A DNA stretch of 64,000 nt from Polytrichum commune (lineage: Eukaryota > Streptophyta > Polytrichopsida > Polytrichales > Polytrichaceae). Made by a program: the position numbers and the translations under genes. The notes under the pieces are model-generated. The model made no database searches and had not been told where the DNA came from. It saw only the letters and a list, made by a program, of their open reading frames with translations. How positions within the stretch are numbered: position 1 is the stretch's first letter; each line of letters begins with the position of its first letter. The stretch lies in contig OX485803.1 in assembly GCA_950295325.1 (NCBI GenBank), positions 31,983,554-32,047,553 on the forward strand. Direction: 5' to 3'. Shown here piece by piece: positions 30,802 to 63,539 of the stretch.

Positions 30802-30829
30802 CCAACGACGCTACCGTGTGAGCGGTGAG

Positions 30830-35828: not shown

Positions 35829-36134
35829 ATGACAGGGTCTTCGCCGCTAGAGTTAGTGAAACCAAAGGTGAAGAGGAGGAGGAAGGCATTTTTCTCAAAC
35901 AGGAAGCAAATAAGGGCATCTAGGATGAGACAGCCAAAACAACCATATGATAACGTAAACAGCACAGTGAAGGCATTGGAATTCTCCCCAGACCACACAC
36001 GGTCAAGGTCTCGTACACGGAGAAGACAGACTCAGAGTGGTGAAGACATTGCTAGGAAGGGAGTTGGAGTGGGTACGACCAGACAAGTGGAGTTCCCAAA
36101 ATCACATGATCTATCGAGAATTTGCGAGACCCAG
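35829..36134 (+). CDS. Candidate 5' exon of gene A (basic N-terminus)
   Basis: ATG to a strong donor (CCAG then GTATGA) gives exactly 102 codons, ending in phase 0, the same phase in which the 45,705 exon starts. The peptide is very basic: KPKVKRRRKAFFSNRKQ looks like a nuclear localisation signal, followed by SRSRTRRRQTQSG. If joined, the intron would be about 9.6 kb and would contain most of the palindrome array. A second open stretch (36,212-36,452) ends at another donor-like GAG/GTGAGG but its phase does not match. The join is inferred from phase alone; it could be an independent short gene. Confidence 0.35.
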
Positions 36135-38589
36135 GTATGAACCTCAAGTCGATGAAAACATATATGCACTAGAAATTAGGGGTAGTCATCGTGAGCTAGC
36201 GAAGGCAGCAAGTGCGGGCATGTCGAAGCACTGACCATCCAAAGGGTGGTCACAATGACACCGTCGGAAGGGGAACGGAACAAGACTGCCGCAGCATTAA
36301 CCTACCATCGTTCTTCGCATTACAACAAATCTTAGAACTAGGGTTTTCCTCCGCATACGAGGATTTCACTCAGCGGTCAGGGTTGCAGCCACGAGTTGGA
36401 GAGGGGGAGAGACTCGAGGGAAGGGCAGTGGTAGCCCAGTGGAGAGGTCTGAGGTGAGGTCTAAAAGATTCATTTTGTGGTAATCTGATATGGGGGTCGT
36501 CCTGTGAGAGTTTTCAAGTGAGGTATAAGAGGTAATTTTTGAGCCTATTTTGGGGTCCTCCTTACAGAGGTCCGAAGTGAGTGCCCTAGGGCTCTGTCGG
36601 ATCCGACAGACCGTGGAGAGCCCACTAAAGAACCTCGCAAATGTTTTTTATGTGGTATAAATTTAATTTGAGGGTGCCTTTGAGAGCGGTCTGAAGTGAG
36701 GTCTGAGAGGTGTTTTTTTTTGTTTTTAAGTAGAGTGGTATAATGTGGTCGAATAAGATTTGAATGTGATATGTGGTTAGGGTGCTAGTTTGAGAGCTCC
36801 AAAGGGGGGCTTAGAGGTTGGCTATAGTTGAAATCCATTTGACTTTGCTTTCGGACAGGGCTGAAGTGAGGGCTAGTATGGTTGGATTTTATGAATTTTT
36901 TGTTTAGGGTGCAAGTGGTAGAGCTCCAAAGGGAGGGCCCTTCGCCTCTGTCGGATCCGACAGCCCAAGGGTAGCCACCTTGGGGACCTCTCAAGTTTTT
37001 TTTTTTTGCTTCAATTTGGGCTGAGGTGAGGGCTGACGTGAGGGCTGGGATGGTTTTTTTTTAAAATTTCTAGCTAATGTGCTTGTGGGAGAGGGCTTAG
37101 GGGGCCTTAGAGGTTGTCTTTTTGTTGAAATAGATTTGATTTTGATTATGGGCTCGGGCTTATGTGAGGGCTTGTATGGTTGTATTTTGTGAGATTTCTA
37201 GTTAGGGTTCAAATGAAAGAGCTGTGAAGGGGGGCTTGCGAGGTAAGTTCTGGTTGAAGAAGATTTGATTTTGATTATGGATGAGGGCTGATGTGAGGGC
37301 TTGTATGGTTGTTTTATGTGAAATTTCTGGTTAGGGTGCAAATGAGAGAGCTTTGAAGGGGGGTTGAGAGGTTAGTTCTGGTTGAAGAAGATTTGATTTT
37401 GCTTATGGGTGAGGGCTGATGTGAGGGCTTGCATGGTTGTACTATGTGAAATTCCTGGTTAGGGTGCAAATGAGAGAGTTGTGAAGGGGGGTTGAGAGGT
37501 TAGTTCTGGTTGAAGAAGATTTGATTTTGCTTATGGGTGAGGGCTGATGTGAGGGCTTGTATGGTTTTTTTTTTGAATTTCTGGTTAGTTGCTAATGAGA
37601 GAGCTTTGAAGGGGGGCTTGAGAGGTTAGATCTGGTTGAAATAGATTTGATTGTGCTTATGGGCTCGGGCTGATGTAAGGTCTTGTATGGTTGTATTCTG
37701 TGAGATTTCTAGTTAGGGTTCAAATGAGAGAGCTTTGAAGGGGGGCTTAGAGGCTTCGAATTTGTTGAAATTGATTTGATTTTGGTTATGGATGAGGGCT
37801 GAGGTGAGGGCTTGTATGGTTTTAATTTTTGAATTTCAGGTTAAGGTGCTAGTGGGAGAGCTCCAAAGGGAGGGCCCTGGGCCTCTGTCGGATCCGACAG
37901 CCCCAGGGTAGCCACCTTGGGGACCTCTCAAGATTTTTTTTTTTTGCTTCAATTGGGCTGAGGTGAGGGCTGAGGTGAGGGCTGGGATGTTTTTTTTTCC
38001 AAATTTTCTAGCTAAGGTGCTTGTGGGGAAGGGGTTAGGGGGGGTTAGATGTATTCATTTTATTGAAATCGATTTGATTTTGCATATGGGCTCGGGCTGA
38101 TGTGAGGGCTTGTATGGTTGTATAATGTTTGAATTTCTGGTTAGGGGGCTAATGAGAGAGGTTTGAAGGGGGGGCTTAGAGGCTTGTTTTTAGTTGAAAT
38201 TGATTTGATTTTGGTTATGGATGAGGGTTGAGGTGAGGGCTTGTGTGGTTTTAATTTTTGAATTTCTGGTTAAGGTGCTAGTGGGAGAGCTCCAAAGGGA
38301 GGGCCCTGGGCCTCTGTCGGATCCGACAGCCCCAGGGTAGCCACCTTGGGGACCTCTCAAGATATTGTTTTTGCTTCAATTTGGGCTGAGGTGAGGGCTG
38401 ACGTGAGGGCTGGGATGTTTTCTTTTTCAAATTTTCTAGCTAAGGTGCTTGTGGGGAAGGGGTTAGGGGGGGTTAGGGGGGGTTAGATGTATTCATTTTA
38501 TTGAAATCGATTTGATTTTGCATATGGGCTCGGGCTGATGTGAGGGCTTGTATGGTTGTATAATGTTTGAATTTCTGGTTAGGGGGCTA

Positions 38590-40143
38590 TGTGAGCCCAA
38601 AATGGTGCCCACATGTGGTGATTAACTCTTCGAAACCAATTTTTGTTTGACTTTGATGTGTTATGATTATTCACAAAACATAAAAAGAGTGAAGTGTGGT
38701 TTGGATTTAAGTTTAGGCATTAGAATGTGTTGTGTAGTTATTTCAAGGTTTGATTTCAATAAGAGGATGCCTTGATTATGTGAGTAGGGGGTAAGGTGAG
38801 GCAAGGTGAGCTCCGCGGGTTAAATGCCCACTTTTGGATCCACCTTGGTAGTTTAGGAGGAAGGAAGCTTGGTGGAAGGGGATTAGTCCCTACTTTGAAG
38901 GTGAAGGTTAAGGGATTGTGATTGGAGGTGCTAATCCTCCCACCCTATCCTCACTTCTCTCTCCCTCTCTCCCTCTCTCCCTCTTTGCTACTTAAGGTGT
39001 TTTTTCTCTCATTTGCCTCTCTCTCCATCAAGCGCTCTCAAGGGAGCAAGCTCTTAAGAGCTTGAGCCACGTGTGTGGTTTATTAGTTTTTAGTGAAGTC
39101 AATTGGATAACTCTCTCTCTCAATACCTCCCAAGTGAGTGAGCTCTTAGGAGTAGGGTTGCATGTGTTGATTAGTTAGTAGTTAGTGAAACTAGAATGTT
39201 AGATTAGTTCATTAGGAGCAAGGGAAAGGAAAGAGTAAGAGAAACTTAGAAAACATTTGGTTAGTGAATGAAGGGGGTTGTGTTAAGGCGCAACTAGTAG
39301 GGGGTTACTCATTCGGGTAATTGAAGGCCTCGGCCACTGGGTGTAGTTCTGGTTACAGGCAGCAAGGCCTCGGCCACTGGTTGTAGTTCTGGTTACAGGC
39401 AGCAAGGCCTCGGCCACTGGTTGTAGTTCTGGTTACAAGCAGCAAGGCCTCGGCCACTGGTTGAGTTCTGGTTACAGGCAGCAAGGCCTCGGCCACTGGT
39501 GGAGTTCTGGTTACAGGCAGCAAGGCCTCGGCCACTGGTGGAGTTCTGGTTACTCGGCAGCAAGGCCTCGGCCACTGGTTGGAGTTCTGGTTACCGGCAG
39601 CAAGGCCTAGGCCAACTGGCTTGGAGTTGCTTAACAACAAACTACCGTTAAGGATTATTAGGGGTTAGCAAGGCTACACCCAATTAGTGGGTGTTAGCAT
39701 ATAGAAAAAAACTAGGTTACATTAGACCATTTTAGGGGTGGATAAGTAGTTAGACCTATTAGGCTAGTTGTGCTACGTGTGGGATTGTATGAGTGTGTGT
39801 AGCCGTTGAGTAAAGTGTTTTTCAACACTTGAAGCTCCCGGTCAAAATAACTCACTTGCACTATTAATGGAGAAGGTGGAAGACTCTTGCGATGACAAGG
39901 AAAAGGGAGTGAAGGTTAAACAAGCAAGGGGAATGTCCTTAAGGGCATGTGTGGCTAAAGCCGCGGGGTGGACTCTTGAGAAGGCCACCTCTAGCACGAG
40001 CCAAGAGGCTAACATTAATAAAACACGATGAGTGAAAACAATATGCTTTCTTTGTACATGGTTCAAGGTTGTAAGAGATACGTGTGATTCTCAAAGCCAT
40101 CACCCGGACTAGGACGCTTAAGGGTGGTGGATTTGGCCTCACA
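38590..40143. mobile_element. Solo LTR 1 (1,554 bp)
   Basis: The insertion starts TGTGAGCCC and ends GGCCTCACA, with 5-bp target duplications GGCTA at 38,585-38,589 and 40,144-40,148. Removing it restores the array phrase GGGGGCTAATGAGAGAGG. TG...CA ends, 5-bp duplications and absence of internal coding sequence or a second LTR copy identify a solo LTR left by recombination of an LTR retrotransposon. It contains a CT-rich tract (about 38,940-39,020) and a 39-bp tandem repeat. Confidence 0.88.
39330..39612 (+). repeat. ~39-bp tandem repeat inside solo LTR 1, about seven units
   Basis: Units of AAGGCCTCGGCCACTGG followed by TTGTAGTTCTGGTTAC and a CAGGCAGC spacer repeat with minor changes. AGGCCTCGGCC is itself near-palindromic. 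The apparent 60-95-residue frames here are by-products of the repeat. Confidence 0.85.
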
Positions 40144-41081
40144 GGCTAATGAGAGAGGTTTGAAGGGGGGCTTAGAGGCTTGTTTTTAGTTGAAATTGAT
40201 TTGATTTTGGATATGGATAAGGGTTGAGGTGAGGGCTTGTATGGTTTTAATTTTTGAATTTCTCGTTAGGGGGCTAATGAGAGGTTTGAAGGGGGGCTTA
40301 GAGGCTTGTTTTTAGTTGAAATTGATTTGATTTTGGTTATGGATGGGGGCTGAGGTGAGGGCTTGTATGGTTTTAATTTTTGAATTTATGGTTAAGGTGC
40401 TAGTGGGAGAGCTCCAAAGGGAGGGCCCTGGGCCTCTGTCGGATCCGACAGCCCATTGGAAGCCATCTTGGGGACCTCTCAATTTATTTATTTTGTTTCA
40501 ATTTGGTCTCAGGTGAGGGCTTGTATGGTTTTAATTTCTGAATTTTCTAGCTAAGGTGCTTGTGGGAGAGCTCCAAAGGGAGGGCCCTAGGCCTTTGTCG
40601 GATCCGACAACCCATTGGTGGCCACCTTGGGGACCTCTCAAGATATTTTTTTTTGCTTCAATTTGGTATGGATGAGGGCTGAGGTGAGGGCTTGTATGGT
40701 TTTAAATTCCGAATTTTCTAGCTAAGGTGCTTGTGGGAGAGCTCCAAAGGGAGGGCCCTAGGCCTTTGTCGGATCCGACAGCCCATTGGAAGCCATCTTG
40801 GGGACCTCTCAATTTATTTATTTTGTTTCAATTTGGTCTCAGGTGAGGGCTGATGTGAGGGCATGTATGGTTTTAATTTTTGAATTTTCTAGCTAAGGTG
40901 CTTGTGGGAGAGCTCCAAAGGGAGGGCCCTAGGCCTCTGTCGGATCCGACAGCCCATTGGAAGCCATCTTGGGGACCTCTCAATTTATTTATTTTGTTTC
41001 AATTTGGTCTCAGGTGAGGGCTGAGGTGAGGGCTTGTATGGTTTTAATTTCTGAATTTTCTAGCTAAGGTGCTTGTGGGAG

Positions 41082-42053
41082 TGTCGCAACCCTTGCTAGG
41101 TCCCTTAATAATCTTGCCAATTTTCGTTTCTAGCAAAGGTTACGAGCGCTAACCCTTCGCATTCCGCCATGCTAATGGATAGCTCCTCTTACCCCGGACC
41201 AATAGTTCATAGGAGGGAACCAACCCTCCTACTTTGCTTTCGGGACTCACCCCTTAATCGGTAACCCATTTCCCCAATGTGGACTTCCATCCATGGAAGT
41301 CCAATCCTATGTTGATCATCGCGTTGCCGGAGCAACACTACAACAACCCGAAGCATACTAGGCAACTATGGCCTCACAATAGGCCAAAGCCCATGGAGGC
41401 CTTGCCGTTCGGCCTCGGGTGGGTGAGGCCACACCACCTCACCCATATAAGCCTCTAGGACTTCACGCGGGGCGCCTACCCCACCGTCAACCAACCTCTT
41501 GTCTCTCTACCAAGAGTTGGGGCCAAGTGGACATTTTCCTTTAGCTGCTGGGCCTAGAACCCCCCAGCAGCTTCAGACCATCATAACTTCCTTGTATGAT
41601 GTCTGATAATAACAACCAACCACTCCATCTTCATCTACGCTTCACGTAGATGCCGATGGACTCCTCACTTGCCCCATTCGGGCAAGTCCTGAGGAAGTTA
41701 TGCCTGTTTGAACCTTTGCAGTCCCGGGAATCACTCCCAGGCACTGCTGTACCAGGGCGCTGTCCCGGGACAGCGCCCCACTCAAATGGCCATAACTCCT
41801 AGCTCACACCTCCGATTGAGGTGTTCTTGAGCTTTCTAGAATCACCACGCCATGAGCTACGCATAACTCATGGCCTTACCCTTGTGCCTCCTAGTCTTCG
41901 TGGGTGGGAGGCGTTCCCAACGCCCGGGGCCCTCACCCACACTAGGATCACTTGGGCCCTCTCACCAACGGCGCCACAAGTCCCGGGTGTCACTCCGGGG
42001 TCCCCCTTGTGCCCATGGTGTTTCGGGCACTCCTCATGGAGAGGTGCGCGACA
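41082..42053. mobile_element. Solo LTR 2 (972 bp)
   Basis: Starts TGTCGCAACCC and ends GTGCGCGACA, with GGGAG target duplications at 41,077-41,081 and 42,054-42,058. Without it the array reads CTTGTGGGAGAGCTCC, as in its other copies. Termini TGTCGC/GCGACA are inverted repeats. No protein-coding domain inside. Confidence 0.88.
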
Positions 42054-42158
42054 GGGAGAGCTCCAAAGGGAGGCCCTAGGCCTCTGTCGGATCCGACAGC
42101 CCATTGGTGGCCACCTTGGGGACCTCTCAAGATTTTTTTTTTGCTTCAATTTGGTATG

Positions 42159-44048
42159 TGTAAACGCAATTTTTGGGCTATCGCCTAGCTGGAGAGCTAC
42201 CATTTTCAAATTAGTGACAATTAGCGGCAATAGTCGATTAAAGGCAAATCACCAGTGTGAAACGAGGGCGATAGTCGCTCCTAGGCGGTTGCAACTGCCT
42301 TCACCTCCCCCGCCGATAATGAGGAGGCTGACCATCGCCAAGACAGGCTATTTTCCATTTGATAGAATCTGACATAGTCTCCACTTAGGATAGCAATAGG
42401 CTTTAGCAGTATCAGATCTCAGTGATTGAGACTGAGTGCAATTAGTCTTTCTCCGAGAGGGAGAAGCAGCAATAGACGTGTGAGAACTGAGTGATTCAGT
42501 CTCAGGCAATGTGACATTTGAATATGAGTAAAGTTTCATTTCAATGAGCAATAGTCTTGTGTGTGTGTGATGTGATTGTGATGTGGTCGTCTGAGACTGA
42601 GGCAATTTATCTTGGGTTGAATTGAGTCTATAGTAGTAGCAAGCAGTAAAGTGTGTGTGCTTTGATATGAAAGAGAGATGTGAGGCCAAGTATATCTTGA
42701 GAGATTCAGGCAATAGCCGTGAACACTGAGAGAGATGTATCATCCGCCGAGAGGGCGAGGAACTTTGTAATCGAGTCTGGGAGTTGCAATGGTTGAGGTC
42801 GGACTATGGCCATCGTCTTGTGAGTGAGTCGTGTCAATGAAGCAAAGGCTGATTGCCGAGAAAGAAGGGCAATAGTCTAGTGGAAGGAGGAGTCGGAGTT
42901 TGAATATGGCCATAGACATGAGAGAGACTTCTCTCAGCCTGGTGCACAGGTTAAAGACTATTTGCCTGAGAGAAGGACAAAGGCAATGGCCGCAAGAAGG
43001 ACAGAGAAGTGTTGGCAATTAGGCAGGGAGTGGTAGAGTCTTGGAAGCCTGTAACTTCCGTGAGGCAAGGCCCGGGCAATAGGCTGTGTCGAGAGAAGCC
43101 TGTGAGGGTAAATAGTCGAGGTTAGGGCCATCGCCTGCTCGGACAGAGAGCCGAAGCGTCGAGGAAGGGCTATCGCCTGAGTCCCTTGGCTATCACCCGT
43201 CTGTTACAAAGAGACTATGAGGGAGAGTTGAGAGAGTAACGTCCTGTAGGGCTATAGGCTTAGCAGGTGTCGTCCCTGAGAGAGAAGAGAGAAAAAGAAC
43301 AGAGAGGCCGCTCATGGGAGCATAGCCAAAGGCCTACTCTGAGACATTACCTGGCATGTAGCCATTGCAGTGGCTGCAGAGACGAGACGAGTTATTGCAG
43401 GCGTGAGCTGCAAAAGACATTACCATTTCAGGAAAGAGAAATTGCCTACTTAGTGTAAGACATTGCCAAAGGCTAATACTTTCGAGCTTAAAATGTAATT
43501 AGACCTTAATCAAGGAATATCACCTACATTGTTGATGCATTGATTATATATAATGCTGTGGGGATTTGTGTGGACAAGTTGCCAATCAGTTGAAGATGAA
43601 GATGATGATTACAGTCTTGTGAAGATGGGCCGAATGCCTGTAAGTTAAATTAAGATGAATTAATTCGAAGTTATTGCAAAACTCAATTCTTGTTATGCAA
43701 AGATGATGTGGTTACAAAAAGACATTACCCCGGACTTCGGTCCTGACGAATTGCCAAGGACTACTTGCCAAGCTTTTGAGCTTCACGACTGAAATAGGTC
43801 AAAGACATAGAGTGATAGAAACTTTCCCTAAAGATAGGACAGAATCACTTTTGATGGAGGAAGCACAAGGAACCATAAGAGTGGGGAATAAGTGGAATTA
43901 AGAAGGAATGAAGGAAGAAAGATCCTAAGTTGTTATTATAATCCTTAAATCCAATGTGACATTAACCCTTATAGACACTATCTCAGTCTTCCTGGAGACT
44001 TTGTTCCCTGGGTTTTGTTGTTTTGAACCATAGCAAAAACTTACTACA
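42159..44048. mobile_element. Solo LTR 3 (1,890 bp)
   Basis: Starts TGTAAACGC and ends TTACTACA, with GTATG duplications at 42,154-42,158 and 44,049-44,053. Excision restores TTTGGTATGGATGAGGGC as in the neighbouring array unit at about 40,666. The inside is rich in short phrases such as GGCAATAG and AGAGAGA without a convincing frame. A long LTR without internal region is the simplest reading; a small non-autonomous element is possible. Confidence 0.82.
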
Positions 44049-44529
44049 GTATGGATGAGGGCTGAGGTGAGGGCTTGTATGGTTTTAAATTCCGAATTTT
44101 CTAGCTAAGGTGCTTGTGGGAGAGCTCCAAAGGGAGGGCCCTAGGCCTCTGTCGGATCCGACAGCCCATTGGAAGCCATCTTGGGGACCTCTCAATTTAT
44201 TTATTTTGTTTCAATTTGGTCTCAGGTGAGGGCTGAGGTGAGGGCTTGTATGGTTTTAATTTCTGAATTTTCTAGCTAAGGTGCTTGTGGGAGAGCTCCA
44301 AAGGGAGGGCCCTAGGCCTCTGTCGGATCCGACAGCCCATTGGAAGCCACCTTGGGGACCTCTCAATTTATTTATTTTGTTTCAATTTGGTCTCAGGTGA
44401 AGGCTGGGGTGAGGGCTTGTATGGTTTTAAATTCTGATTTTTCAAGCTAAGGTGCTTGTGGGAGAGCTCCAAAGGGAGGGCCCTAGGCCTCTGTTGGATC
44501 CGACAGCCCATTGGAAGCCATCTTGGGGA

Positions 44530-44727
44530 CCCAACAGCTTCAGACCATCATAACTTTCTTGTATGATGTCTGATTTGAACAACCAACCACTCCATCTTCA
44601 TCTATGCTTCACGTAGATGCCGATGGACTCCTCACTTGACCCATTCAGGCAAGTATTGACGACGTTATGCCTGTTTGAACCTTGGCAGTCCCGGGAATCA
44701 CTCCCAGGCACTGCTGGACCAGGGCTC
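44530..44727 (+). repeat. Fragment of solo LTR 2 fused into the palindrome array
   Basis: This stretch (CAGCTTCAGACCATCATAAC to GGCACTGCTGGACCAGG) matches the inside of solo LTR 2 at about 41,570-41,755. It has no LTR ends or target duplication. It joins array sequence directly at both sides, entering after GGGGACC and leaving into GCTCTGTCGG. This suggests unequal crossover or gene conversion between array units. Confidence 0.75.
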
Positions 44728-45704
44728 TGTCGGATCCGACAGCCCATTGGTGGCCACCTTGGGGACCTCTCAAGATTTTCTTTTTTGCTTCAATTTGGTA
44801 TGGATGAGGGCTGAGGTGAGAGCTTGTATGGTTTTAAATTCTGAATTTTCTAGCTAAGGTGCTTGTGGGAGAGCTCCAAAGGGAGGGCCCTAGGCCTTTG
44901 TCGGATCCGACAACCCATTGGAAGCCATCTTGGGGACCTCTCAATTTATTTATTTTGTTTCAATTTGGTCTCAGGTGAGGCCTGAGGTGAGGGCTTGTAT
45001 GGTTTTTTTTCCAAATTTTCTAGCTAATGTGCTTGTGGGAGAGGGCTTAGGGGGCTTAGAGGTTTGTTGTTTGTTTAATTTGATTTGATTTTGCTTATGG
45101 TTGAGGGCTATTGTGAGGGCTTTTTGGGTTGTATTTTGTGAAATCTCGGGTTAGGGTGCTAATGAGAGAGGTTTGAAGGGGGCCTAAGAGGTTAGTTTTT
45201 AGTTGAAATTGATTTGATTTTGCTTTGAGAAAGGGTTCATGTGTGGGCTTGTTTTGTTTTATTTCGTGAATTTTCTGGTTAGGGGGCTAGTGGGAGAGGG
45301 CTTAGGGGGGCTTTGAGGTTTTCTTTTTGTTGAAATAGATTTGATTTAGCTTATGGGCTCGGGCAGATGTGAGGGCTTGGATGGTTTTTTTTCTGGAATT
45401 TCTGGTTAAGTTGCTAGTGGGAGAACTTTGAAGGGGGGCTTAGAGGTTTGCTTTGGTTGAAATTGATTTGCCTTTGCTTATGGGTGAGGGCGGGTATGGT
45501 TTTTTTTTTAATTTCCTAGCTAGTGTGCTAGTGGGAGCGGGCTGAAGTGATGGCTTGAGAGGTTTGTTTTAGTTGCAAATGATTTGACTTTGCTTTTGGG
45601 AGAGGTCAAATGGGGTCCCACTTCGGGACCTTTTAAAGTGGTCATTCTTATGCATATTTTGTTCATTTGGTTGGTCCTCACCTTTGTAACTAATTGCTTC
45701 TCAG

Positions 45705-46995
45705 GAGATCATTGAGATGGTGGGGGATGCAAAGTCTTTGGATGTTGGGGTTCGCAATGGTGCTAAGTCATCCCTTAGTGTTGAGGAGCATATGGAACAA
45801 GGGTCTCCATTGTCACTTGCTGAAAATATTGGGCTTACACCAGGTAGTAGCGAACCCCATACACCCGAGATGCCACTCTGCGTCTCACCTGCAGAATCGG
45901 ATGTCGGTGTTCGTACAATGGAGTATCGGATTCGTCACAATTTAAAGAAAGATAGCTTCTCAGTTGTTGAGGGCATGAGGATACAACCGGTAGAAAAATC
46001 CTCTATGAGAATCCCCCTCTGCAAGTTGATTCACATGCCATTGGTTCGTCCAACCCTCCGCAGCGACGTTACAAAGCTCATGGCGGCATTTCAATTTGGA
46101 TACCGAGCTGGGTCTGCCACTTTGTACGTGTCTACTACAAATGAGTCTAGAGATAATCGATTTATTTCTGCGAAAGACAGGCGTGAATGGGGAGAGCTTT
46201 GGGTTGCAGAAAATGATAAGTTTGAGTCTTTTCTACGCGCGGATAAGGACTTAATGAGCCTCAGTAGATGTATGTTCTTCGTGTATGATGGTAACCACCG
46301 CTTGCTTGCGTGGAAGAAGTGTATCGAATCAGATCACAAGGACGATGCACTCTGGTATGAGAAGCATGGTTGCCCAGAATGTGTTGTCCTCGATACAACG
46401 GGTGGGCGTGGGGACGTCCTTAACGCAATGCACGACATCAACAAGTAAGTATGTTAGTTTTTTAAATCGTTTTTTCCTTCATTTTTTGATTGGCATCTAA
46501 TGGCATTTGTCTCAACCGCAACAGGGCTAACCAGACCGCTCACGTTAAAACTAGCCTCGTACACACTCTACACCGCATTCAAAAATACGGTTCATATGAT
46601 CTTAGCTACTACCAGCCATTATTGACCGAGGAGCAATTCCAAGCGTGCAAGAGCAAAGGCCCCAAGAGCCCTTGGTACCCGCTGACCCAAGACCTTATAG
46701 TGTCCTTCATTTTCAATGTAAGTCACTCCAAATTCCTCAACCTTCTACTTCGCATTCATTACTCTTAGTCATGATCTTACAATTTCGAATATATGTTCAG
46801 CAAGAGATAGCCGATGCGGTAGATGAGGCAGCCCAAATCTACAAGGAGGAAGTTCCTCCAGAGGAGCAATCTGGGAACGGGTTGGGTGAGGTATTGGACG
46901 GTGTGATTAAGAAGACGACTGAGGAACTTGGGCACAAGTTTAACAAACAACAATCAATCGCAAACCCCGCCCTTGGAAAACAGTTCCTAGAGGAG
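45705..46995 (+). CDS. Gene A: ParB/Srx-like domain protein, 3' truncated
   Basis: Exons 45,705-46,444, 46,525-46,717 and 46,801-46,995 join with GT-AG borders in compatible phases into 376 open codons. The first exon starts after acceptor TTCTCAG (EIIEMVGDAKSLDV), so coding begins further upstream. Core text: SSMRIPLCKLIHMPLVRPTL, LMAAFQFGYRAGSATLYVS, then CMFFVYDGNHRLLAWKKC, which matches the strand-DG(N/Q)HR-helix signature of ParB/sulfiredoxin-fold proteins, and CVVLDTTGGRGDVLNAMHDIN. The third exon is helical and acidic (DAVDEAAQIYKEEVPPEEQ) and ends at donor GTACGT. The intron then runs into the palindrome array until 48,090, where unrelated sequence begins, so the 3' end is missing. 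The order of strand, DG-x-H motif and Asn-rich helix parallels gene B. Biochemical role unknown; ParB-fold domains bind nucleotides or act as nucleases. Confidence 0.6.
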
Positions 46996-53542: not shown

Positions 53543-54349
53543 ATATGTAAGATTATATCTATTAAGGGGTTTTACTCTACTTGTAGTCAAACATTATGGT
53601 ATATTTCAAACAATATATTGACAAAAGATGTGCATGTATTATAAAACTTCATATACTAAAAGTCACTAAATATAATAGTTAATGCTATTATTTAGACTCT
53701 CACATGAGGACTTATATTTTGAAAACAAATAATTAATGCCATGACAAACTTGAATAATTTGGCCAACTTTCAATTTCTGCTAATTAAAAGAACATATGTT
53801 GTGTTGTAATGTGTGCACCCAATATTGCTTCATCCTCAAGACTCCAAGTGTGACAATAACCTAGTACCTATGTGGAAGTCATTAATGGAACCCTAAACCA
53901 CAAATGACATTTGGCACGTTCAATCTTCCAAGGATGTTTGAACCTATCGTGAAGTCCCTTGAACTCTACCAATGTGTGTGAGCAAAACATGCAAAGTTCA
54001 AAAGGTATGTCCTCATATCATTCACAACATGAAATCTACTTTAAATTAATATATAATATTTCACTATTCCAAATAACATGTTAACATGAACAACATCCTA
54101 TCCATTATAATCTAGTTCTTATGCTTTTCTTACCAGGTGACAAGGTTATAGGTTAATATTGTATCACCTACTTGTGAGCACAATATCGTTTATTTCCTTT
54201 AGTGCGTTCATTCGTGAAAAACCACACATCCATCTTTCACGTTTGTGAATTAGGATGTTGTGATGACAATATACATTTGTATTGGAAACTACAAGCACCA
54301 AGGCCCATGTCATTTGACCTATGTGCCATCCAGTTATGGTTTGTGTTGT

Positions 54350-54386
54350 TTAAGGTTTAGGGTTTAGGGTTTAGGGTTTAGGGTTC
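54350..54386 (+). repeat. Short interstitial TTTAGGG run
   Basis: About four and a half units of GGTTTAG (TTTAGGG), the Arabidopsis-type plant telomere repeat, inside AT-rich DNA. Such short runs occur in plant promoters and as chromosomal scars. Confidence 0.85.
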
Positions 54387-55029
54387 AGGCATCATCAAAC
54401 ATCAAACTGAATGTTTAAATGACTTCATATGATATGTGAACTCCATGGGGTTGCAGTAGATACATTTGTAATCATTTGTTTCTCCCATGTACTTCAAATG
54501 TGAACTTCTAAGTACATATATTAATGTTCACTCTAATGCTACTTGTTAGGGTATCCATTATAGACTAGAGCATTGTCCTCTACCAACAACCATCATATAA
54601 ATTACAATACATAATCCTAAACTGTTAACCATGTGAATGGTTACCATATTTATATTATTGCACCGTGTAATTGCCTTTGTGGATTGCAATATAATTATGA
54701 CTTACTCCTCTTAGACTTTGTAACACTCTCATATGATTCCATAAATTACATTATTCATACACCAAAACGATAATGGCTACATTCAACGATGTTATCAATT
54801 CCAACGGGTGATCATTCAATTGAACACCATTAAAATATGAGTTGGTGATGGTGTTAATTTTGTGGAATACCTTAGTCCACGTAGGTTTTTGACTGGTATT
54901 GAATTGCCGCTAATGAATAGCGGGTTAGAAGGCCGGGGCCGGGCGGCCAAGAGAGGCGCCGGCCCTCCTATGTCCCGCACCTAGGGGCAAGGACAACCAG
55001 GAAGGCAATCTCCCTAGGGTGGCAGGTGT

Positions 55030-55110
55030 CAACACCACAAGCCTCGCGGGCAACCACCTAAACCAAGGAGGTGTCGACACCTGGCAAGGTGTTGGCCCGC
55101 GAGGCTTCTG
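55030..55110. promoter_or_regulatory. Strong stem-loop upstream of gene B
   Basis: AAGCCTCGCGGGC (about 55,040) and GCCCGCGAGGCTT (about 55,095) are perfect 13-base inverted repeats. Between them lies the 14-bp palindrome AGGTGTCGACACCT, and outside the stem AACACC pairs with GGTGTT. The structure sits about 100 bases before the CT-rich leader of gene B. It could be a cruciform-prone regulatory site or a small fold-back insertion. Confidence 0.6.
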
Positions 55111-55139
55111 AGCCGTTGATGGGCCCGGCGCAATCTAAT

Positions 55140-55767
55140 GGCCCGGATTCGAGGGTTTAGGGTGACCCCTTCCGCTCTCTCCTTCTCTCCCCTCCTCTTT
55201 TTTCTTTCTCTCTTTTTCTTCCTCTCTTCCTCCGCGCCAAGCGCCGCTCTTGGAAACGCCGCCGCCGCTTTCCATAGCGCCGCGCCAAGCGCTTCCTCTC
55301 GCACCTTTTGCTTTTGTCTTGGTCGCGCCGCTTCCCTTCATTCTTCTTTCTCCTTCATTCCTCTCCTCCTCTCTGATGCTTCTCCTCCTCTTCTCTCATT
55401 CTATTCCTCGTGTTATTGTCTTCCTCTTCTTATTCTCTCTTCTTGGTCCAGAGTGTTAGCTTTGAGTGAGTTCGGAGCGGTTTATTGTGTTGAACTCCTT
55501 ACTTGTTTTGTAAAATTCATGCATGGAGTGATTTTAGGTTGAGTAGAAGTGAGCACGGTCGAGTGTGATAGAAATGTAGAGGTCTTTCAAATTAGGCCTG
55601 AGTTTGCAAGAATCAGGGGGTTTGTGAGAAAGTTTTAGGGTGCTTGAGAGATTCATTGTGTTTCTGAGATCTTTGTGAGAGTTGTTCTTTAGTGCCACAA
55701 CAGAGTTTCTGAGTCTGGTTGTAAGAAGCAGATTGTGAGAGCAGCTTTCAAGAGTTTGAAAGACAAG
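55140..55767 (+). other. Probable 5' untranslated exon of gene B
   Basis: The CT-rich start (CTCTCCTTCTCTCCCCTCC) is typical of plant 5' leaders. The block ends at a strong donor (AGACAAG then GTAAGC). The matching acceptor TTGGATTGCAG directly precedes the ATG at 56,696, so the first intron (55,768-56,695) would remove the palindrome cluster. The transcription start is not fixed. Small frames inside this exon are not called. Confidence 0.5.
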
Positions 55768-55887
55768 GTAAGCAATTTGCATCAGTGCACACAATTTGCA
55801 TCATTCCCTTTAGGTTCCTGTTACATATACAATGCATAAGCATTGTATATGTTGCCCAAGCATTAAACATGCATCTGGAAACACAGT

Positions 55888-56670
55888 AGTTTGGGGAGAC
55901 GACCCAAACTCATATTAAAATATAATAAATATTTGAATTGCAGCCTAAAATGAACTAAATGTTTGGGTCGTTCGACCCAAACATTGCAGCCTCTTGTTTG
56001 GGTCGAGCGACCCAAACATTGGAGCCTCATTATGTTTGGGTCGCTCGACCCAAACATTACAGGGAGAAGAACTAAACCACATTGTAAAATATAAAAGAAC
56101 TTCAAAAATTAAGTAAATGTTTGGGTCGTTCGACCCAAACATTGCAGACTGAAATGACTGGGTTGAGGTACCTAAATTTGCAGCCTAACATGTTTGGGTC
56201 GCTCGACCCAAACATTACAGGGAGAAGAACTAAACCACATTGTAAAATATAAAAGAACTTTGAAAATTAAGTGAATGTTTGGGTCGTTCGACCCAAACAT
56301 TGCAGTCTGAAATGAATGGGTTGAGCTACCTAAATTTGCAGCCTAACATATTTGGGTCGCTCGACCCAAACATTACAGGGAGAAGAACTAAACCACATTG
56401 TAAAATATAAAAGAACTTCCAAAATTAAGTAATTGTTTGGGTCGTTCGACCCAAACATTGCAGTCTGAAATGAATGTGTTGAGATACCTAAATTTGCAGC
56501 CTCATCATGTTTGGGTCGCTCGACCCAAACATTACAGGGTGACCACCTAAACCACACTTTAAAATCTAAAAGATCTTTTAAAACGACTTTGAAAATTAAG
56601 TAAATGTTTGGGTCAATCCTCCAAATGTTAAATGCACATTGCAATACTTTGGGTCGATCGACCGAAACTC
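55888..56670 (+). repeat. Cluster of 22-nt palindromes in the first intron of gene B
   Basis: Nine near-perfect copies (55,961, 55,996, 56,034, about 56,118, 56,190, 56,276, 56,350, 56,435, 56,510) and three degenerate ones (about 55,888, 56,606, 56,648). Centres alternate mainly TT and CT. Part of the cluster is a roughly 75-85-base higher-order repeat that includes GGGAGAAGAACTAAACC. The outermost base pair is mostly T with A, extending symmetry to 24 bases. Confidence 0.9.
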
Positions 56671-56695
56671 ACAGTTTCGATTTCTTGGATTGCAG

Positions 56696-59600
56696 ATGGC
56701 CCCTAAAAAGAGACCAGGTGAAAGGTGGTTCATGCTCGCGCCAGACCACCTTTGGCAGGAGTATGAAACTCCACAGGACGATTCTTACGTCCCAAAAGAT
56801 GGCGTCGTTTTGGCATGGTCCGTTCAGGTGGTGAAGGCATCCATGTTCAAGCTGCTATTCGTGGTGAAGGTGGGGACCCACGAGCAGCACACCTGGGCAA
56901 CGCTGACGGGATGGGAGGTTGCGTCCGTCCAGTCTCTCGGGGACTACGTAGACGTGATACTGGAGAACTCCGCCGTGCAGAACGTCCACATGTTCATGCA
57001 CCAGTTCTCCGAGCCCTTCGACCCCCTGTACGCCAAGGAGACTTGCGTCGACCCTGAAACCATAAAACCAGAGGCCATATTCATAGATGGTAGTGTAACG
57101 AACACGAAGGTTGCGAGCAGGTTCACGAAGTTAAAACAGGCTATCACGGTTCTCAACAAGGCGCTGCAAAACAAACCCAAGACGCAGCAGCCTGTGAGGC
57201 GGAAGGCAACGACGGAAGAAGGCGCAGGGTCCTCAAGACCACAAACTGTGAGGAAACCGCGGGCGGTCCCTGCAGACTCGAGACGGACGAGCACTACAAC
57301 AACGCCGGCTGACAGCGAGACGCCAACGCCATCAGGAAGCCGTCAGACGACCCCTTCCAAGAGGGGAAGAGAGTCATCGGGGATGACTGACGAGCCTGTT
57401 TCCCCGGAGCTCCGGATGCCGAAGCCTGGCCAAGAGGTGGATGCAGGCGAAATACAAAAAATAAACAACAACTTCGAGACAAAATGCCTGCACTGCTTCT
57501 TCATGGGCAGGGACTTCAAATTCGAGGTCAACATTGCGCAGTGCCACCTTGCGCCACCAGAGAAGTGCGTCCGAGCCAAGGAGGACGCCTACGTCGACTG
57601 GATGGTCGCTCAAATCTTGGGCGGGCAGTTCAAGGACGACAGGCAGACAATTGTTGTCATGCCACAAGGGCTGAAAAGAATGCCGACGCCTGAGATGTGG
57701 CCGGCAATCTCTAAAGGAGACTTCTGGCTGATTGACGGGCAGCACAGTGTGGAGGCCTCGAAAAAAATCCAGCTGATGACCGAGTGGGACGACCCGAACA
57801 ACCAGAAGGAGAAGCTAAAAGTTTGGAAGGCTTTGGTGGTTTGGTCGGACAACGAGACGGTCCTCAGCGACATCTCCAGGTTCTTCAACATGGGGAACAA
57901 AAAGAGGGCCTATCAGGCATCGTGGATCAGAAACATCATGGCCTCGAGGGAGGTGTGGGAGTTTTATGGAAGGCCTCCCAAGGAAAGGGAGAATGCTAAA
58001 GACAAGAACCCCAAATGGGAGGTGAGTATGTTTGGGTCGATCGACCCAAACTCCTACATTGTTTTGTTGTCATCGCCAGGTTGATAGTTTGGGTCGGTCG
58101 ACCCAAACTCTGAAATTATTTTGATATTGTCCCCAGGTTCATAGTTTGGGTCGGTCGACCCAAACTCTGAAATTGTTAAGATGTTTTCGCCAGGTTCATA
58201 GTTTGGGTCGTTCGACCCAAACTGCTGTTGCATTTGTTTTTCCATTATGTGTTGTCTAACATGTGCTAATGTCTTCCTGTGCAGGACTTCAAATATCAAA
58301 TGATTAATAAATTCTCCTCGATCGACAATGCTAGCCACAAGCAGAAAAAAGTATAACGAGCTGAGAGGAGAAATCTATTTGATCACAGCGTCCGATTCCG
58401 TATGGGCAAGATGGAAGAGTGTTTTTGAAAAACACGAGACGGGGGACCTCATGGACCCCGACACCGGCATGCTCTTCAACCAGACTACGCGCTTCAAGCA
58501 AATGAAGCCTCTGGTGAGGGAGTTCTTCAGAGCGCTTCAAGGTCTCTCCGAGACAGAGATGGGAAAAGCGGCGTCCCACATCCTACACGTGGAGACGACG
58601 GCGAAGAGATGCTGGGTCCACCCTAAGATCGTCTTCACCAAACCCAAGATCTTCGTCCCTTCATGCTACACAATGAAGGAATGGACGGAGAACAGGAAGA
58701 AGAAGACGACCATCGTCCAGGAGCTGCACAAGCTTGTGCCAGAGAAGAAGCTCATCGTGGACGGAGAGGTCGACGAGGCGCACTGGAGGGCCTTCAAAGC
58801 CGAATATAAGTTTACCAGTGCGTCCATGGCGGCACTCATGAGGGAGGCGGGAGACGACTTCCTCAGATCCAAGCTCGTGAAGGGGGGGAGGAACCGGGCG
58901 CTTCCCGAACACTCAGTGCGGGCCTTCTCCAACTTCATAAAGGAGAAGAAGATCGTCAGTTTCGAAGGCGATGCGCAATTCAACATGGTCACTGTCGAAC
59001 CTCTCAGGATCCAGGGTTGGCCGGGTTCTGAGTCAAGGAAGGCGATCAGGACTAGAGCCGGGGACCGCTTCCCCTTCGGAATGATAGACTTCAGGAACAT
59101 CCCTGGAGCCTCATTCGAGGGGACTATGAGCACCCCTTTTTACGATCCTTTCTTGTCGAAGTTCGTGGACTACGCCAGCCCCAAATTCAGGGAGGTCGAC
59201 GTCTGGCTCTGGATTGTCGAGGACAGAAGGGCAGAGCAGGTTTACGAGATCGTGCGCAAATTGCAGCCGGAGTATGCCGTCTCGAAATCTCACTACGTTG
59301 CTGCACCGGCGGAGGGGGCGTACAGCACGCTGAAAGACAAGAAGACGAAGATCGTCAACGTGCTGTGTTTGTACTTCGTGTACAAAGCTGAGCTGCTTAA
59401 GGTGCCAAACCATCCCATAGCCAGGATGGAAAAGCTCTTCCAAGTCCAAGAAGGGTTGGGTACCAGCAGGAGCTTATATGACGAGGCGAAGTACGCCAAC
59501 TACCCCGCGGATGAGCTGCGCATGGAGTTCTACCTGCGGATGATGAGGACCCTCACGAAGAGAGGGGACTGCATCTTCAACGTTTTCGGGGGGTCCAAAC

Positions 59601-62600
59601 CGATTTTTGCAGCCATGGTAAGCAGAAAACCCAGAAGTCCCTATACGTTCGGTTTGGGTCGAACGACCCAAACTAGGGGCATGCACAGTTTGGGTCGCTC
59701 GACCCAAACTAGGGCCATGCATAGTTTGGGTCGAGCGACCCAAACTAACTATTCTTATTTTGTTTGGAAGTCATTTTCCATTATATGTTCATTTGGTGTT
59801 ACTAATAGTATTGATTTTGATTGTGCAGATGTCTGGGTTGAACATCTACTCCTATGTAGAGGATGCCGATGTTCAATTCTACAGGACCCAAAAGGCGCTG
59901 GCCAAGAGAATGGACATCCTCGACTGGATACCCGGATCCTACGTCGAAGAGATCGTCGAGGGGGGCGAGAATCCTTTGGATATTGCGAGGCGAATCAACC
60001 CGGGTGAATTCGCCATGCGGGCCCCCGTTCAATTGCCAGAGCCGCTCATCGGGTTGCATCCGGGCAATCCGTCTATGGGAGCAGGTGGCAGGGTTGGGGA
60101 GGAGGGGGAGGAAGACGAGGAGGAGGCGGAGGAGGAAGCAGAGAAAGTGGAGGGGGAGGTGGAGGAAGGGGCAACAGGATTCACTCAAGAATCCGAGGCC
60201 CCTCAGCGGAAGAAGGCCATGCGGCCTGCCACGCCGCAGAGCAGGCTGGTGCCCGCGTTGACGGTGGACGACGCCAAGGATATGTACTCGAGGGACGCGA
60301 CGGCCACCTTCAGGGAGCGTAGAAGGATGAAGGGGAAGAAGCTGTACGGGGACTATGCGGTGGAGGAGACGATCGCAATAAGCTCCGAGGACGAGGACGA
60401 CATGGAACTCGCCAAGAAGCTGAGGTCTGATCCTGCCTCCCCCAGAGCGTTCGCCGGGAATGTGAGGGTGAAACCGGAGGTCCTCACCGTGGAGGAGGCG
60501 AACGCAAAAATGCTCCGAGACGAGGAGCAGCGTGTGCGACTGCAGAGGGCTGCCGCCGAGGAACCCTCTGTCCGCAACGAAGTCGCGGAGTTGAGGGCTC
60601 TCCTGTTGGAGCAGGAGCGGCAAAGGGCAATGTCCCAAACTCCGTCCCAAGCGGACCTCATCACGCAAGTGATCCAGGGCATGCTGGCGCAGGGATTGGT
60701 GATGGCTCCCCCGAGTTCATTCCCTCACTTGCCCGCAGGCTTCCCTCCACAGGATATCCGCCCGCGGCCGGCGTTGGAGCATTCCTTCAGCTTCGCGGAT
60801 TTGCTGCAGCCGCACGCCCGTCCTTACGCGCCTGTGCAGCAGGTGGATGATCCAAACCTTTGGCGCGTCCCCGGAGCGTCCAGCTCGTTGGCACCCCCCC
60901 CGCTCCGGCCTCCCATCCTCTTGCCCCCACACCACCAGCGGGACGACCCCCACATGTTTGGGTCGTCCGACCCAAACAGTGCCGATGTTGCAGCGTCGCA
61001 GAGCGACCCTCGCCAAGCAGCAGGGTTTGGGTCGGCCGACCCAAACCCCGTCCCCCATCAGACCCCGGTCGACGAGCCTATGCTAGATGTTGAAGGCCCG
61101 CAAGGGCCTGGTGATACCTCTACTCCTAACCCAGTCGATGAACCAATGCATGATGCGCATGCGGAGGTTGGGTTGGGACAAAGGCCTGACAGTCAGCCTT
61201 TGCAGGAGCAGGTTGCGGCTGACGGCGTCGTCGGAGGCGGCGGTGACAGAGGTGGGGCAGCGCACGCGATGCCGGCATCAACGTCGTCAAGGCACGACCA
61301 AGGCGAGGTAATGCACTGACCCCACTCAGTTTGGGTCGGCCGACCCAAACTTCCTGGGTCTTTGACTTCTTGCCTTGGTCGTGTCCCCTAGCTAGGACGA
61401 ACTTAGGCCCCCCCCGGCACTCGCGCCCTTCGTCACCCCCAGCGACCATTCGTTCGTCCACCTACCCCCGGCTTTGCAACGAAGTCTTCATCACGGCGGC
61501 CCGTCTCTTCAATTTTTTCTAGATGTAGAAGTAGGCTAGTTTGAACGCATCGTTCAACGCGGCTCCCCCAATCAAGATGTACATAGAGCATTGTATATAA
61601 TATAATCACCATTTTTGACTCCTATATACTTGTATATTGTGTTTGAATGTATTTTGTATGCTCTTGTATCCCTTGTATCCCTTGTTGCACCCCCTCCAAA
61701 ATGAATCAAATGCTTTTGTGTTTGCACCGAGAACGCTCGTTTCCTTAATGCTTCGTTTGGACATAGCATGACATAAGTCGCCCCCGTTTTCTCTCGCTCG
61801 TATCCGCAGGGCTCGGAGCATAGCGTAGCGGCTCCCCGACGCTCTTCTCCAAGGAGCGCAGAGGGCAGCACGGCGGCCCCCCCGGTTTTACCCGCCCCGC
61901 CCCCGCTGCCGAAGAAACGATTCCTGGTGTTAGACCTGAACGGTGTCCTCGTGCAGTGCGTTCATTGCCCTAGGGCCCCCACAGTGCCCTTTTGCAAGCC
62001 CGAGGACGCTAATTACGACGGGCCGCCCACGTTCATAAAGAGCAAACTAGTTCACCTCCGCCCGTGGCTTCGGACCTTCCTCCAGATCGCCCAACAACGA
62101 TGGTGGGTGGTCGTGTGGAGCTCCATGACGGCCGAGAACACCAATGCGGTCGTGGAGTTCATCTTCAAGGGCATCGAGCCCCCCTGCATGGTCCTAGCAC
62201 AGGAAGCCTGTAGAATATTGTACACACAGGACGGCAAAGTCGTCAAAAAACCAAACAACCCCGCTTCCCCCCAATACCTCAAGGTCTTGAAGCCCATTTT
62301 TTGGGACCAGCGACCGTCCTTGATAGGCGTCCCCTACGACGTCCGCCCCACCCGCGAGAACACGCTCATGGTGGACGACAGCGCCGCAAAGAACATGTTG
62401 AACCCGACGGCCAACTTCATAGTGTGCCCTACGTGGACGGTCGAGAAGGTCCGGGACCGATTTTTGTTAGACCTTAGTAAATACCTCCAGGCGCTCTGGG
62501 GAAGTGGACTTCCCGTAAACAATTTTGTTAGGAATAATCCCATAGGCGAGAGATACTTGGATCCACGAGACCATTTGTACAGAGAGTTGTTATCTCACGC

Positions 62601-62622
62601 GAAATTTAACAAGCTCATTTGA
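56696..62622 (+). CDS. Gene B: ParB-like, methyltransferase-like and FCP1-phosphatase-like fusion
   Basis: Coding exons 56,696-58,021, 58,285-59,617, 59,829-61,307 and 61,810-62,622; every intron is GT-AG and phase 0; about 1,650 codons. Exon 1: N-terminal domain of unknown kind (residues 1-150), basic/Thr-rich linker, then a ParB/DGQHR-like stretch (MVAQILGGQFKDD, GDFWLIDGQHSVEASKKI, SRFFNMGNKKRA). Exon 2 ends with GDCIFNVFGGSKPIFAAM and exon 3 begins SGLNIYSYVEDADVQFY, resembling the FxGxG motif and following helix of beta-class DNA methyltransferases. The upstream DPPY motif is not evident (DVWLWIVED in its place), so catalysis is doubtful. Exon 3 is Glu-rich with coiled coil and two palindrome-encoded FGS-x-DPN peptides. 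Exon 4 has HAD/FCP1 motifs: VLDLNGVLV, VVVWSSMTAEN and LMVDDSAAKN. Exon 2 contains one extra base in the A run 58,345-58,350, a frameshift or sequencing error. GC-rich exons contrast with AT-rich flanks. Confidence 0.6.
58030..58222 (+). repeat. Four 22-nt palindromes in gene B intron 2
   Basis: Perfect copies at 58,030-58,051 (centre AT), 58,087-58,108 (GT), 58,144-58,165 (GT) and 58,201-58,222 (TT), spaced exactly 57 bases. The first begins just 8 bases after the exon border. The third to fourth spacing carries diverged unit text, so the regular period is notable. Confidence 0.95.
59652..59745 (+). repeat. Three 22-nt palindromes in gene B intron 3
   Basis: Perfect copies at 59,652-59,673 (AA), 59,688-59,709 (CT) and 59,724-59,745 (AG), spaced exactly 36 bases. 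Spacers share TAGGG(G/C)CATGCA. Confidence 0.95.
60956..61046 (+). repeat. Two 22-nt palindromes inside coding exon 3 of gene B
   Basis: Copies at 60,956-60,977 (centre TC) and 61,025-61,046 (centre GC) are perfect and lie in the same reading frame, adding FGSSDPN and FGSADPN to a disordered Pro/Asp-rich region. Exon context is supported by the open frame from 59,829 to the donor at 61,308. Confidence 0.92.
61329..61350 (+). repeat. 22-nt palindrome in gene B intron 4
   Basis: Perfect arms with centre GC, 21 bases after the donor GAG/GTAATG. The rest of this intron (to 61,809) is unremarkable and ends in TATCCGCAG. Confidence 0.95.
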
Positions 62623-62775
62623 GACAGTACGTGTGTTTGTATGTGTGTGTGTGTATATGCGCCTACCCATTTTGTGTAATTTACGCTTCATATGTATCTT
62701 GATTTTCACGCGCTCTATCTCCCCCCTTTTCCTTGGGTTTTGTTTTGTTCCAATTTTGGCTCCAGCGTTTGGAGC

Positions 62776-63539
62776 CCTCGATTGACGTCGTCAGCGAGTC
62801 AGACTTGGGGAGCTTCTTCTACGAGACCGTTTACGACGCCGCGTCAACCATCGACTACTCCAAGGAGCCTCTTGACGCCGGCGTCGTCGATAGCCCCCCA
62901 CCCAAGCAAATCTTCCGGCGATCTGCGTCCCCGTCACCGCTCAAAGGCATAAATCGCAAATGCGTCCGGACATCCCCCTCTCGGCCCGGCGGCAGTAGTA
63001 CACCTCAACGGCGGCTGCGGATGGACGCTCGGCCTACGAAGAGTGGAACCCTTCCTATTCCTTTGCGGGATGCCTTGCCCCTCCTCGCCAACTCCGACGG
63101 GAACGCCCCCGGTGACAAGGTGAACCCCCCCCCCCCCCCCCAAAAAACATGGTTATCCGCGCATTACAATCATTTTGCACTTAAAAAATGAATGTGTGAC
63201 ACGTTTGGGTCTTCCTCCCTAAACTAACACATGTGTTCGTGCGTTGACGCGTTGCAGGTTGCTCCCACCCGTAAACCTATGCGGTCTAGTGCGTCCATCG
63301 AGTTGGAGCGTTTCTACTCCATGACCAGAAATGCAAGACAGTCCACTTCATCGTATTCGAATTCTTCGTCGTATAATTCGGGCGGCCGACGGAATACAAA
63401 ATGTGTTATTGATGGCGTTCACCCCAAGAATGGCTATAGTCGCGGGGCGGAGATTTTCAGGAATGTTGAAGCAATGCGAGCAAAAGAAGCTGCAGCAAAA
63501 GAAAAAGAGGCAAAAGAAAAAAAAAGCAAAAGAAAATGA
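62776..63539 (+). CDS. Two downstream exons, Ser/Arg-rich protein tail
   Basis: Acceptor GGCTCCAG precedes an open block 62,776-63,119 (RLEPSIDVVSESDLGSFF, YSKEPLDAGVVDSPPPK, RRSASPSPLKG). Donor AAG/GTGAAC and acceptor GTTGCAG then join it in phase 0 to 63,258-63,539 (VAPTRKPMRSSASIELERFY...), which ends in a Lys/Glu/Ala-rich helix and a basic stop-proximal KSKRK. No family recognised. The exon series matches gene B in phase and GC content, but gene B's FCP1-like exon ends in TGA at 62,620-62,622 and no clear phase-0 donor precedes it. It may be an alternative C-terminus of gene B or a separate gene with an unseen first exon. Confidence 0.4.

Follow-up and report, generated by a model that had tools for sequence, protein, structure and literature searches.

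The 64,000-nucleotide stretch of Polytrichum commune DNA analyzed here (C1:31983554-32047553, called the window below) contains two nested DNA transposons with terminal inverted repeats (TIRs), and each has an accessory gene, gene A in transposon A and gene B in transposon B, accompanied by many copies of a palindromic site of its own. In the genome (407.8 Mb over 64 contigs, seven of which span 42-78 Mb), the sites are linked to these genes and differ between gene clades, and the arms of the gene B palindrome are constrained. The initial annotation described two ParB-like genes with their own palindromes. The association between genes and sites is retained in the present analysis, while the genes themselves are recast as accessory genes of two large TIR transposons. 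The GT-AG intron borders, recognized by eye, point to eukaryotic nuclear DNA.

Two nested transposons and their palindromes

The left end of transposon A reads CAACGAC-GCTACCGTGTGAGCGGTGAGC, with a 10-bp target site duplication (TSD), CACACACAAC. The TIR motif GCTACNNTGTGAGCGGTGAGC, first noticed as flanking gene A on either side, has 92 occurrences genome-wide (reversed control 0). At 49 of these it points inward to a listed family gene no more than 20 kb off and at 4 it points outward, while random placement gives a mean of 1.04 and a maximum of 6 in 300 draws; the 210 family gene starts used for this test are part of the rows in the search tables. Among 11 hand-picked element pairs, including that of the window, the right end is CAGGAAT-TIR in all 11, and the left end is CAACGAC-TIR in 10 and CAATGAC in one. 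Located at a fixed offset, the TSD is perfect over its 10 bp in ten pairs, and in the remaining pair 9 of the 10 bases match; two of the ten perfect repeats extend to 13 bp as printed, by chance repetition of the end. With its TIRs, its TSD and its several copies, transposon A is a TIR DNA transposon. MULE/MuDR elements have a TSD of about 9 bp. The three minus-strand open reading frames (ORFs) inside the left end probably encode the transposase of element A, and each of them, searched singly, gave no Pfam match at the gathering score and no MULE profile match.

Gene A is interrupted by element B and picks up again, with the splice phases in register, in L037, the stretch that continues beyond the window end (L037:3771 corresponds to window position 67,771). 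The splice sites of both genes were picked by eye. An array of GAGGCCTCGGATCCGAGGCCTC, a palindrome of the L056 type with one copy centered on TT, is found by the right end of element A (L037:3082-3506) and also at L001:1019-1154, and at C1:14.07 Mb a shorter version of it is separated from palindrome A by 0.4-0.7 kb; a single element may thus carry two site types.

Transposon B is bounded by a perfect 28-bp TIR, AACACTATATTCGTTAAATTGAGACTTT. Window-numbered positions 48,093-64,125 have a counterpart on C7, a second copy with 97.9-99.4% identity in three aligned pieces, and the similarity breaks off sharply at both transposon ends. Both copies have a 4-bp TSD (TTAG in the window, CATT on C7), the length also known for Sola transposons. 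Transposon B is, by its TIRs, TSD and several copies, likewise a TIR DNA transposon. It contains a minus-strand DUF7869 gene, a satellite and the plus-strand gene B. One ORF of the DUF7869 gene (48625-50133) matches PF25273 (DUF7869) with E=1.1e-42, the second being without a match, and its position suggests that this gene encodes the transposase. Gene A and gene B are each opposite in strand to the putative transposase of their element. Of 1110 candidate copies, 95 were scored over exon 1 of gene B, and 33 of these show 99-100% identity. The 1-nt frameshift in exon 2 is found in the window copy alone among 42 readable copies (50 loci). The exon with the NIF phosphatase domain (PF03031, window 61810-62622) joins gene B in frame if spliced.

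Palindrome A, CTGTCGGATCCGACAG, has 16 matches with at most two mismatches between window positions 36,594 and 47,848, 12 of them exact, two with one mismatch and two with a compensated outer pair (TTGTCGG..CCGACAA). Palindrome B, TTTGGGTCGNNCGACCCAAA, has 31 exact matches between 51,904 and 61,349. Neither is found in 100 shuffles, and the copy numbers of the initial annotation (about 16, and about 19 plus 12 in a satellite) are reproduced. As it also stated, all 16 palindrome A sites are intronic, in introns 1 and 4 of gene A as modelled; nine belong to tandem arrays called with Tandem Repeats Finder. For palindrome B, 12 sites lie in the 78-bp satellite, four in intron 1, three in intron 2, two in exon 3 and one in intron 3, in agreement with the earlier description of introns and an exon, and a further nine are located in the intron or leader 5' of exon 1. 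The term "perfect" applies to the arms of palindrome B but not to its center, where the two bases are free (9 dinucleotides) and only 9 of the 31 copies are perfect throughout.

The second outer pair of palindrome B covaries, being G-C, T-A or A-T in 28 of 31 sites (10.9 expected). In palindrome A, 42 of 49 sites have a complementary first outer pair (33.2 expected), and complementarity of the next two pairs falls below expectation (9 of 49 and 3 of 49). Pairs of palindrome B with the 69-bp spacing of exon 3 and other centers are also found at C1:1190419/1190488 and C1:2115829/2115898. A dispersed repeat with a palindrome of its own, GCGCTGTCCCGGGACAGCGC, is present at window positions 41081-42050 and 44530-44740 and in the L078 flank; its second fragment in the window meets palindrome A, by eye, at the palindrome itself.

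Linkage of the sites to gene clades

Genome-wide, there are 374 sites of palindrome A (clade I), 50 of the clade II palindrome GGTGGTCGGNNCCGACCACC, 52 of GTGTTTCGGNNCCGAAACAC, 1310 of TGTCTCGGNNCCGAGACA and 9731 of palindrome B, with reversed controls of 0 each; the first 50 sites of each search were listed (the first 100 for palindrome B). The linkage is complete for clade II, where all 50 sites in the 408 Mb lie within 6,666 bp of a clade II gene (random fraction 0.03%). Seven of the eight clade II genes have the palindrome, among them the gene at C2:22.19 Mb, which was found only after its site cluster. Of the 50 clade I sites listed, 46 have a gene within 10 kb and the other four within 50 kb; 12 of the listed sites come from the window itself. 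All ten clade I copies fetched, the window's included, have 1-4 sites in 3.5 kb.

The two other types behave similarly for most of the listed sites. In the GTGTTTCGG type (site GTGTTTCGGNNCCGAAACAC, 50 of 52 listed), 9, 10 and 2 sites are located at genes of 100, 98 and 82% identity, respectively. Three more lie 7-57 kb from a partial gene of 91% identity, inside a TIR pair, and four lie 21 kb from the gene of 98% identity just mentioned, inside the TIR pair of that gene. In the TGTCTCGG type (site TGTCTCGGNNCCGAGACA, 50 of 1310 listed), 36 sites are within 8 kb of genes and one is about 52 kb away. Palindrome B sites were matched to genes in the fetched copies, and all 30 close copies of gene B (the window's included) hold 6-20 exact palindromes in 4.3 kb. 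The genome test called for in the initial annotation, that the palindromes follow gene clades, is thus passed fully by clade II and by most listed sites elsewhere. The idea of the palindromes as general intron repeats was rejected on the basis of these site listings. At C1:467479-471945 there is an array of TGTCTCGGTACCGAGACA together with one GTGTTTCGGTGCCGAAACAC, and no family gene is listed there. A TG-centered single site such as the one at this locus is listed 11 times, and these sites perhaps represent a further, more distant clade.

The sites also change between clades around a common core. Twelve paralogs of gene A with 39-56% identity were taken with about 2.5 kb on either side, and nine of them (L048-L056) have 2-11 copies of the core TCGG-NN-CCGA (TCGGNNCCGA). 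Around this core the outer arms are group-specific, namely GTGG/CCAC, TGTC/GACA, AGTGTT/AACACT, GGTT/AACC and GAGGCC/GGCCTC. They are self-complementary in most copies, those of L055 and most of those of L054 being imperfect by one pair. The absence of TCGGNNCCGA from the window's initial 35 kb is a weak control, since only about 0.5 would be expected. Among three further paralogs, L100 has three imperfect copies of GGGTGTCGTTTACGGCACCC, and the palindromes of L101 and L102 recur in L059 and L057.

Constraint on the arms is seen in 20 diverged copies of gene B (92-94% protein identity). For the first site in intron 1, the arms show 3 differences from the window in 400 positions, against 218 in 680 for the spacer that follows. 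This count covers all 20 diverged copies, aligned; they share ancestry, and the events are not independent, and no p-value is claimed. A count on 15 of the 20 copies (1 of 300 versus 163 of 525) was replaced because its selection rule favored intact sites, and the Fisher p of 1e-35 derived from it was dropped. Judged from the aligned sequences, the gene B sites look to be under selection.

Table 1. Features of the two nested transposons (window numbering, except for L037)
Feature	Position	Strand	Remarks
Transposon A	30803..64000	+	ends at window-numbered 67,771 (L037:3771); 36,969 bp with nested element B
Three stop-to-stop ORFs, putative transposase of element A	31388..35092	-	SWIM-like CxC..CxH by eye
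Gene A	35829..46995	+	tentative exon model; runs past window end into L037
Gene A exons 1-4	35829-36133, 45705-46444, 46525-46717, 46801-46995	+	DGNHR motif in exon 2
Gene A later exons	L037: 314-535, 620-846, 939-2191, 2284 onward		N6_N4_Mtase domain
Palindrome A (CTGTCGGATCCGACAG, variants with 1-2 mismatches), 14 copies	36594..44913	.	intron 1 of gene A
Palindrome A, 2 copies	47398..47848	.	intron 4 of gene A
Transposon B	48093..64000	+	16,033 bp; final 125 bp past window end; in gene A intron 4
DUF7869 gene (ORFs 48625-50133 and 50106-51794)	48625..51794	-	putative transposase of B, by position
78-bp satellite with 12 palindromes B	51886..52783	.	
Palindrome B, 9 copies	55962..56529	.	5' of gene B exon 1
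Gene B	56696..63553	+	six exons
Gene B exons 1-3	56696-58021, 58285-59617, 59829-61307	+	DGQH in exon 1; 1-nt frameshift in exon 2 (window copy)
Gene B exons 4-6	61810-62622, 62766-63118, 63258-63553	+	NIF phosphatase PF03031 in exon 4; last two tentative
Palindrome B, 4 copies	58031..58221	.	intron 1; arms kept in diverged copies
Palindrome B, 3 copies	59653..59744	.	intron 2
Palindrome B, 2 copies	60957..61045	+	coding exon 3, in frame: FGS-S-DPN, FGS-A-DPN; 69 bp apart
Palindrome B, 1 copy	61330..61349	.	intron 3

Outside transposon A, the window has a separate MULE transposase gene at 10367-11809 (PF10551, 30.3 bits versus a cut-off of 27.6) and, on the minus strand at 14258-23341, a retrotransposon of the long interspersed nuclear element type, identified by eye, with reverse-transcriptase-like ORFs and a strong GC skew.

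Accessory proteins and their proposed role

ParB-type proteins have a conserved [DE]GNHR-type motif. GNHR is invariant across all 14 aligned paralogs of gene A, and gene B reads DGQH instead of DGNHR. The designation ParB-like is used here because of these motifs and because similar proteins have been reported for another transposon, an algal one (PMC12477816). The C-terminus of gene A matches N6_N4_Mtase (PF01555) with 28.1 bits versus a cut-off of 26.7, over profile positions 163-215 of 221. Against the PDB, this part finds DpnA/CcrM structures with E values of 9.1e-5 (DpnA) and 2e-4.

Relatives were sought in several other collections. Exon 1 of gene B and exon 2 of gene A have none in viral contigs, where palindrome B has 0 matches as well; the gene A alignment has none among prokaryote genomes, and gene B exon 1 has no match in phages. 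The 21 phage records returned for gene A exon 2, with E values of 0.6 or worse, were judged chance matches, and the annotated ones among the 20 listed are amidases, endolysins or tail proteins. The methyltransferase of gene A returned 37 phage records. None of the 12 listed covers 80%, and most cover only the final 50-60 residues (motif I). The one match inspected in its record falls in an 843-bp gene annotated as a DNA methyltransferase; the displayed stretch includes no ParB annotation.

We consider it fairly probable that the accessory protein binds the sites of its own element, loads on the copies and shields them from silencing and/or marks them, each protein being matched to the sites of its clade. 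The protein would consist of the DGNHR/DGQH part, together with the amino-methyltransferase domain in gene A, and would bind, most likely as a dimer, the two-fold symmetric sites that its element carries in introns, leader, satellite and even a coding exon. Loading would protect the copies from host silencing and/or mark them, and the family would stay active. Divergence of the protein would be followed by matching divergence of the sites, and each clade would then address only its own copies. A more far-reaching version is, in our judgment, rather doubtful: the genes would form a large, diversifying transposon-encoded self-recognition family, a prokaryote-type ParB-methyltransferase and its palindromes acting as lock and key in nuclear introns, and two transposon families would label their own copies, by binding or by N4-methylcytosine or N6-methyladenine, and escape silencing.

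A number of results weigh against self-recognition by such a protein. On the protein side, gene A, gene B and the 14 aligned paralogs of gene A have no Pfam ParB match. The AlphaFold2 model used for the fold test is poor (mean predicted local distance difference test score, pLDDT, of 55), and Foldseek on this low-pLDDT model gives a best E of 3.4, with ParB at rank 2 (E 3.9) and none at 0.001. A profile comparison of gene A with gene B, with a probability of 1.9, reveals no convincing similarity. The ParB/Srx fold implied in the initial annotation finds no support in these profiles, this model or the comparison. The catalytic motif of N6/N4 methyltransferases is [DNS]PP[YFW], and motif IV of gene A is ADIPEN, not DPPY, in the one copy read; because of this noncanonical motif the enzyme may be dead, and its activity appears doubtful. 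The methyltransferase-like stretch of gene B has no Pfam match.

On the DNA side, the exact TIR motif is absent within 90 kb of all eight clade II genes. An array of 11 GTGTTTCGGNNCCGAAACAC sites has no detected gene, though it lies within a family TIR pair, and 11 isolated sites among the 50 of 52 listed have no listed family gene; the same applies to 13 of the 50 listed TGTCTCGGNNCCGAGACA sites, which form one array. L057-L059 are without a TCGGNNCCGA array (one copy in L057, none in L058 and L059), all three further paralogs (L100-L102, 900 bp upstream read) are without the core, and one of the 20 diverged gene B copies (L085) has no perfect palindrome in the 420 bp read. Finally, the sites move with the element, and within-clade co-location is thus partly mere copying. 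Since it is expected on that ground, the weight lies on the change of sites between clades and on the constraint on the palindrome B arms.

Four alternatives have been considered. The strongest of them, in our estimate an improbable one, is that the palindromes are internal sites of a transposase (DUF7869 or that of element A) for transposition or end pairing, the ParB-like gene being a bystander. The TIR elements holding the palindromes do encode a putative transposase as well, and 12 of the 31 palindrome B sites form the satellite beside the DUF7869 gene. However, most sites in the window are not near the TIRs but within the accessory genes (introns, leader, exon), and the TIR core of family A is common to several clades (clade I, L053 and L100 types), whereas the palindromes are clade-specific.

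Slightly less probable still is that the palindromes are hairpin-prone repeats which slippage, tandem duplication and gene conversion have spread, with no protein partner. Such an origin would account for the location of most palindrome B sites and 9 of the 16 palindrome A sites in tandem arrays, and for the range of 0-7 perfect sites per diverged intron-1 stretch. It does not fit with the spacers of the same units, which diverge by a third while the arms barely do, nor with the arms being identical at six places of element B, the in-frame coding exon included, in flanks unrelated by eye. The innermost pairs are moreover kept, though a 2-base center bars a normal hairpin loop.

We regard as quite unlikely that the sites act at the RNA level, as hairpins in introns or untranslated regions that serve splicing, yield small RNAs or control translation. 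Many sites are indeed intronic and the outer pair of palindrome B covaries, but 12 of the 31 palindrome B sites are in a satellite beyond the modelled gene, and the 2-base center is also unfavorable as an RNA loop. Plain hitch-hiking, in which conservation would only reflect young copies such as the near-identical third of the scored gene B copies, is the least credible, as the contrast between arms and spacers is present where spacers differ by 32% and the core is still common to gene A clades at 39-56% identity.

Comparison with known systems

Self-recognition by the accessory protein can be compared with three known systems. As in bacterial ParB-parS, palindromic sites lie beside the gene of the presumed binder, whose DGNHR/DGQH motif resembles that of ParB-type proteins; unlike there, the genes are eukaryotic and intron-bearing, the sites number dozens, and there is no ParB profile match.

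A closer parallel is the 21.5-kb Sola1 transposon Sola1-1_Ec32 of Ectocarpus, for which the main text of PMC12477816 describes a gene with ParB-like and methyltransferase parts opposite the transposase and suggests that proteins of this kind bind the transposon encoding them and modify it (epigenetic marking). The large DNA transposon, the accessory gene opposite the transposase and the methyltransferase domain (gene A) are common to both. That main text never uses the stem "palindrom", and no recognition sites are met in its passages on this gene, whereas candidate sites are available here, differing by gene clade, and the same architecture is found in two transposon families. On the other hand, ParB homology is unconfirmed for the present genes and the methyltransferase-like part of gene B lacks a Pfam match. 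Among the open-access papers that our searches listed, we recognized none tying palindromic arrays to such genes.

The accessory proteins are best read as resembling these algal ParB-methyltransferases and as working like VANC of Arabidopsis. As shown in PMC5735166, VANC proteins bind motifs that are repeated in tandem in the introns and further non-coding stretches of the VANDAL elements they come from; the motifs differ between VANC types, and motif and protein evolve together. Here too, arrays of a short motif occur in introns and non-coding parts of the element that encodes the accessory protein, and they vary with the accessory gene, with exceptions (L057-L059, L100-L102 and some GTGTTTCGGNNCCGAAACAC and TGTCTCGGNNCCGAGACA sites). 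The VANC21 motif, YAGTATTAY, is not a long two-fold symmetric site, and gene A differs in its methyltransferase domain. For VANC, binding and hypomethylation have been demonstrated, while for the present proteins binding and protection from silencing are proposed from sequence. The palindromes provide candidate sites, numbering from dozens to thousands, for accessory proteins of a kind proposed, in algal transposons, to bind and mark their own element, and with them candidate DNA-binding proteins that are each paired with a candidate target. Gene clades are many and their sites differ, with one core common to most of those examined; this constitutes a natural experiment, and the likeness to VANC suggests that this kind of self-recognition has arisen in more than one transposon lineage.

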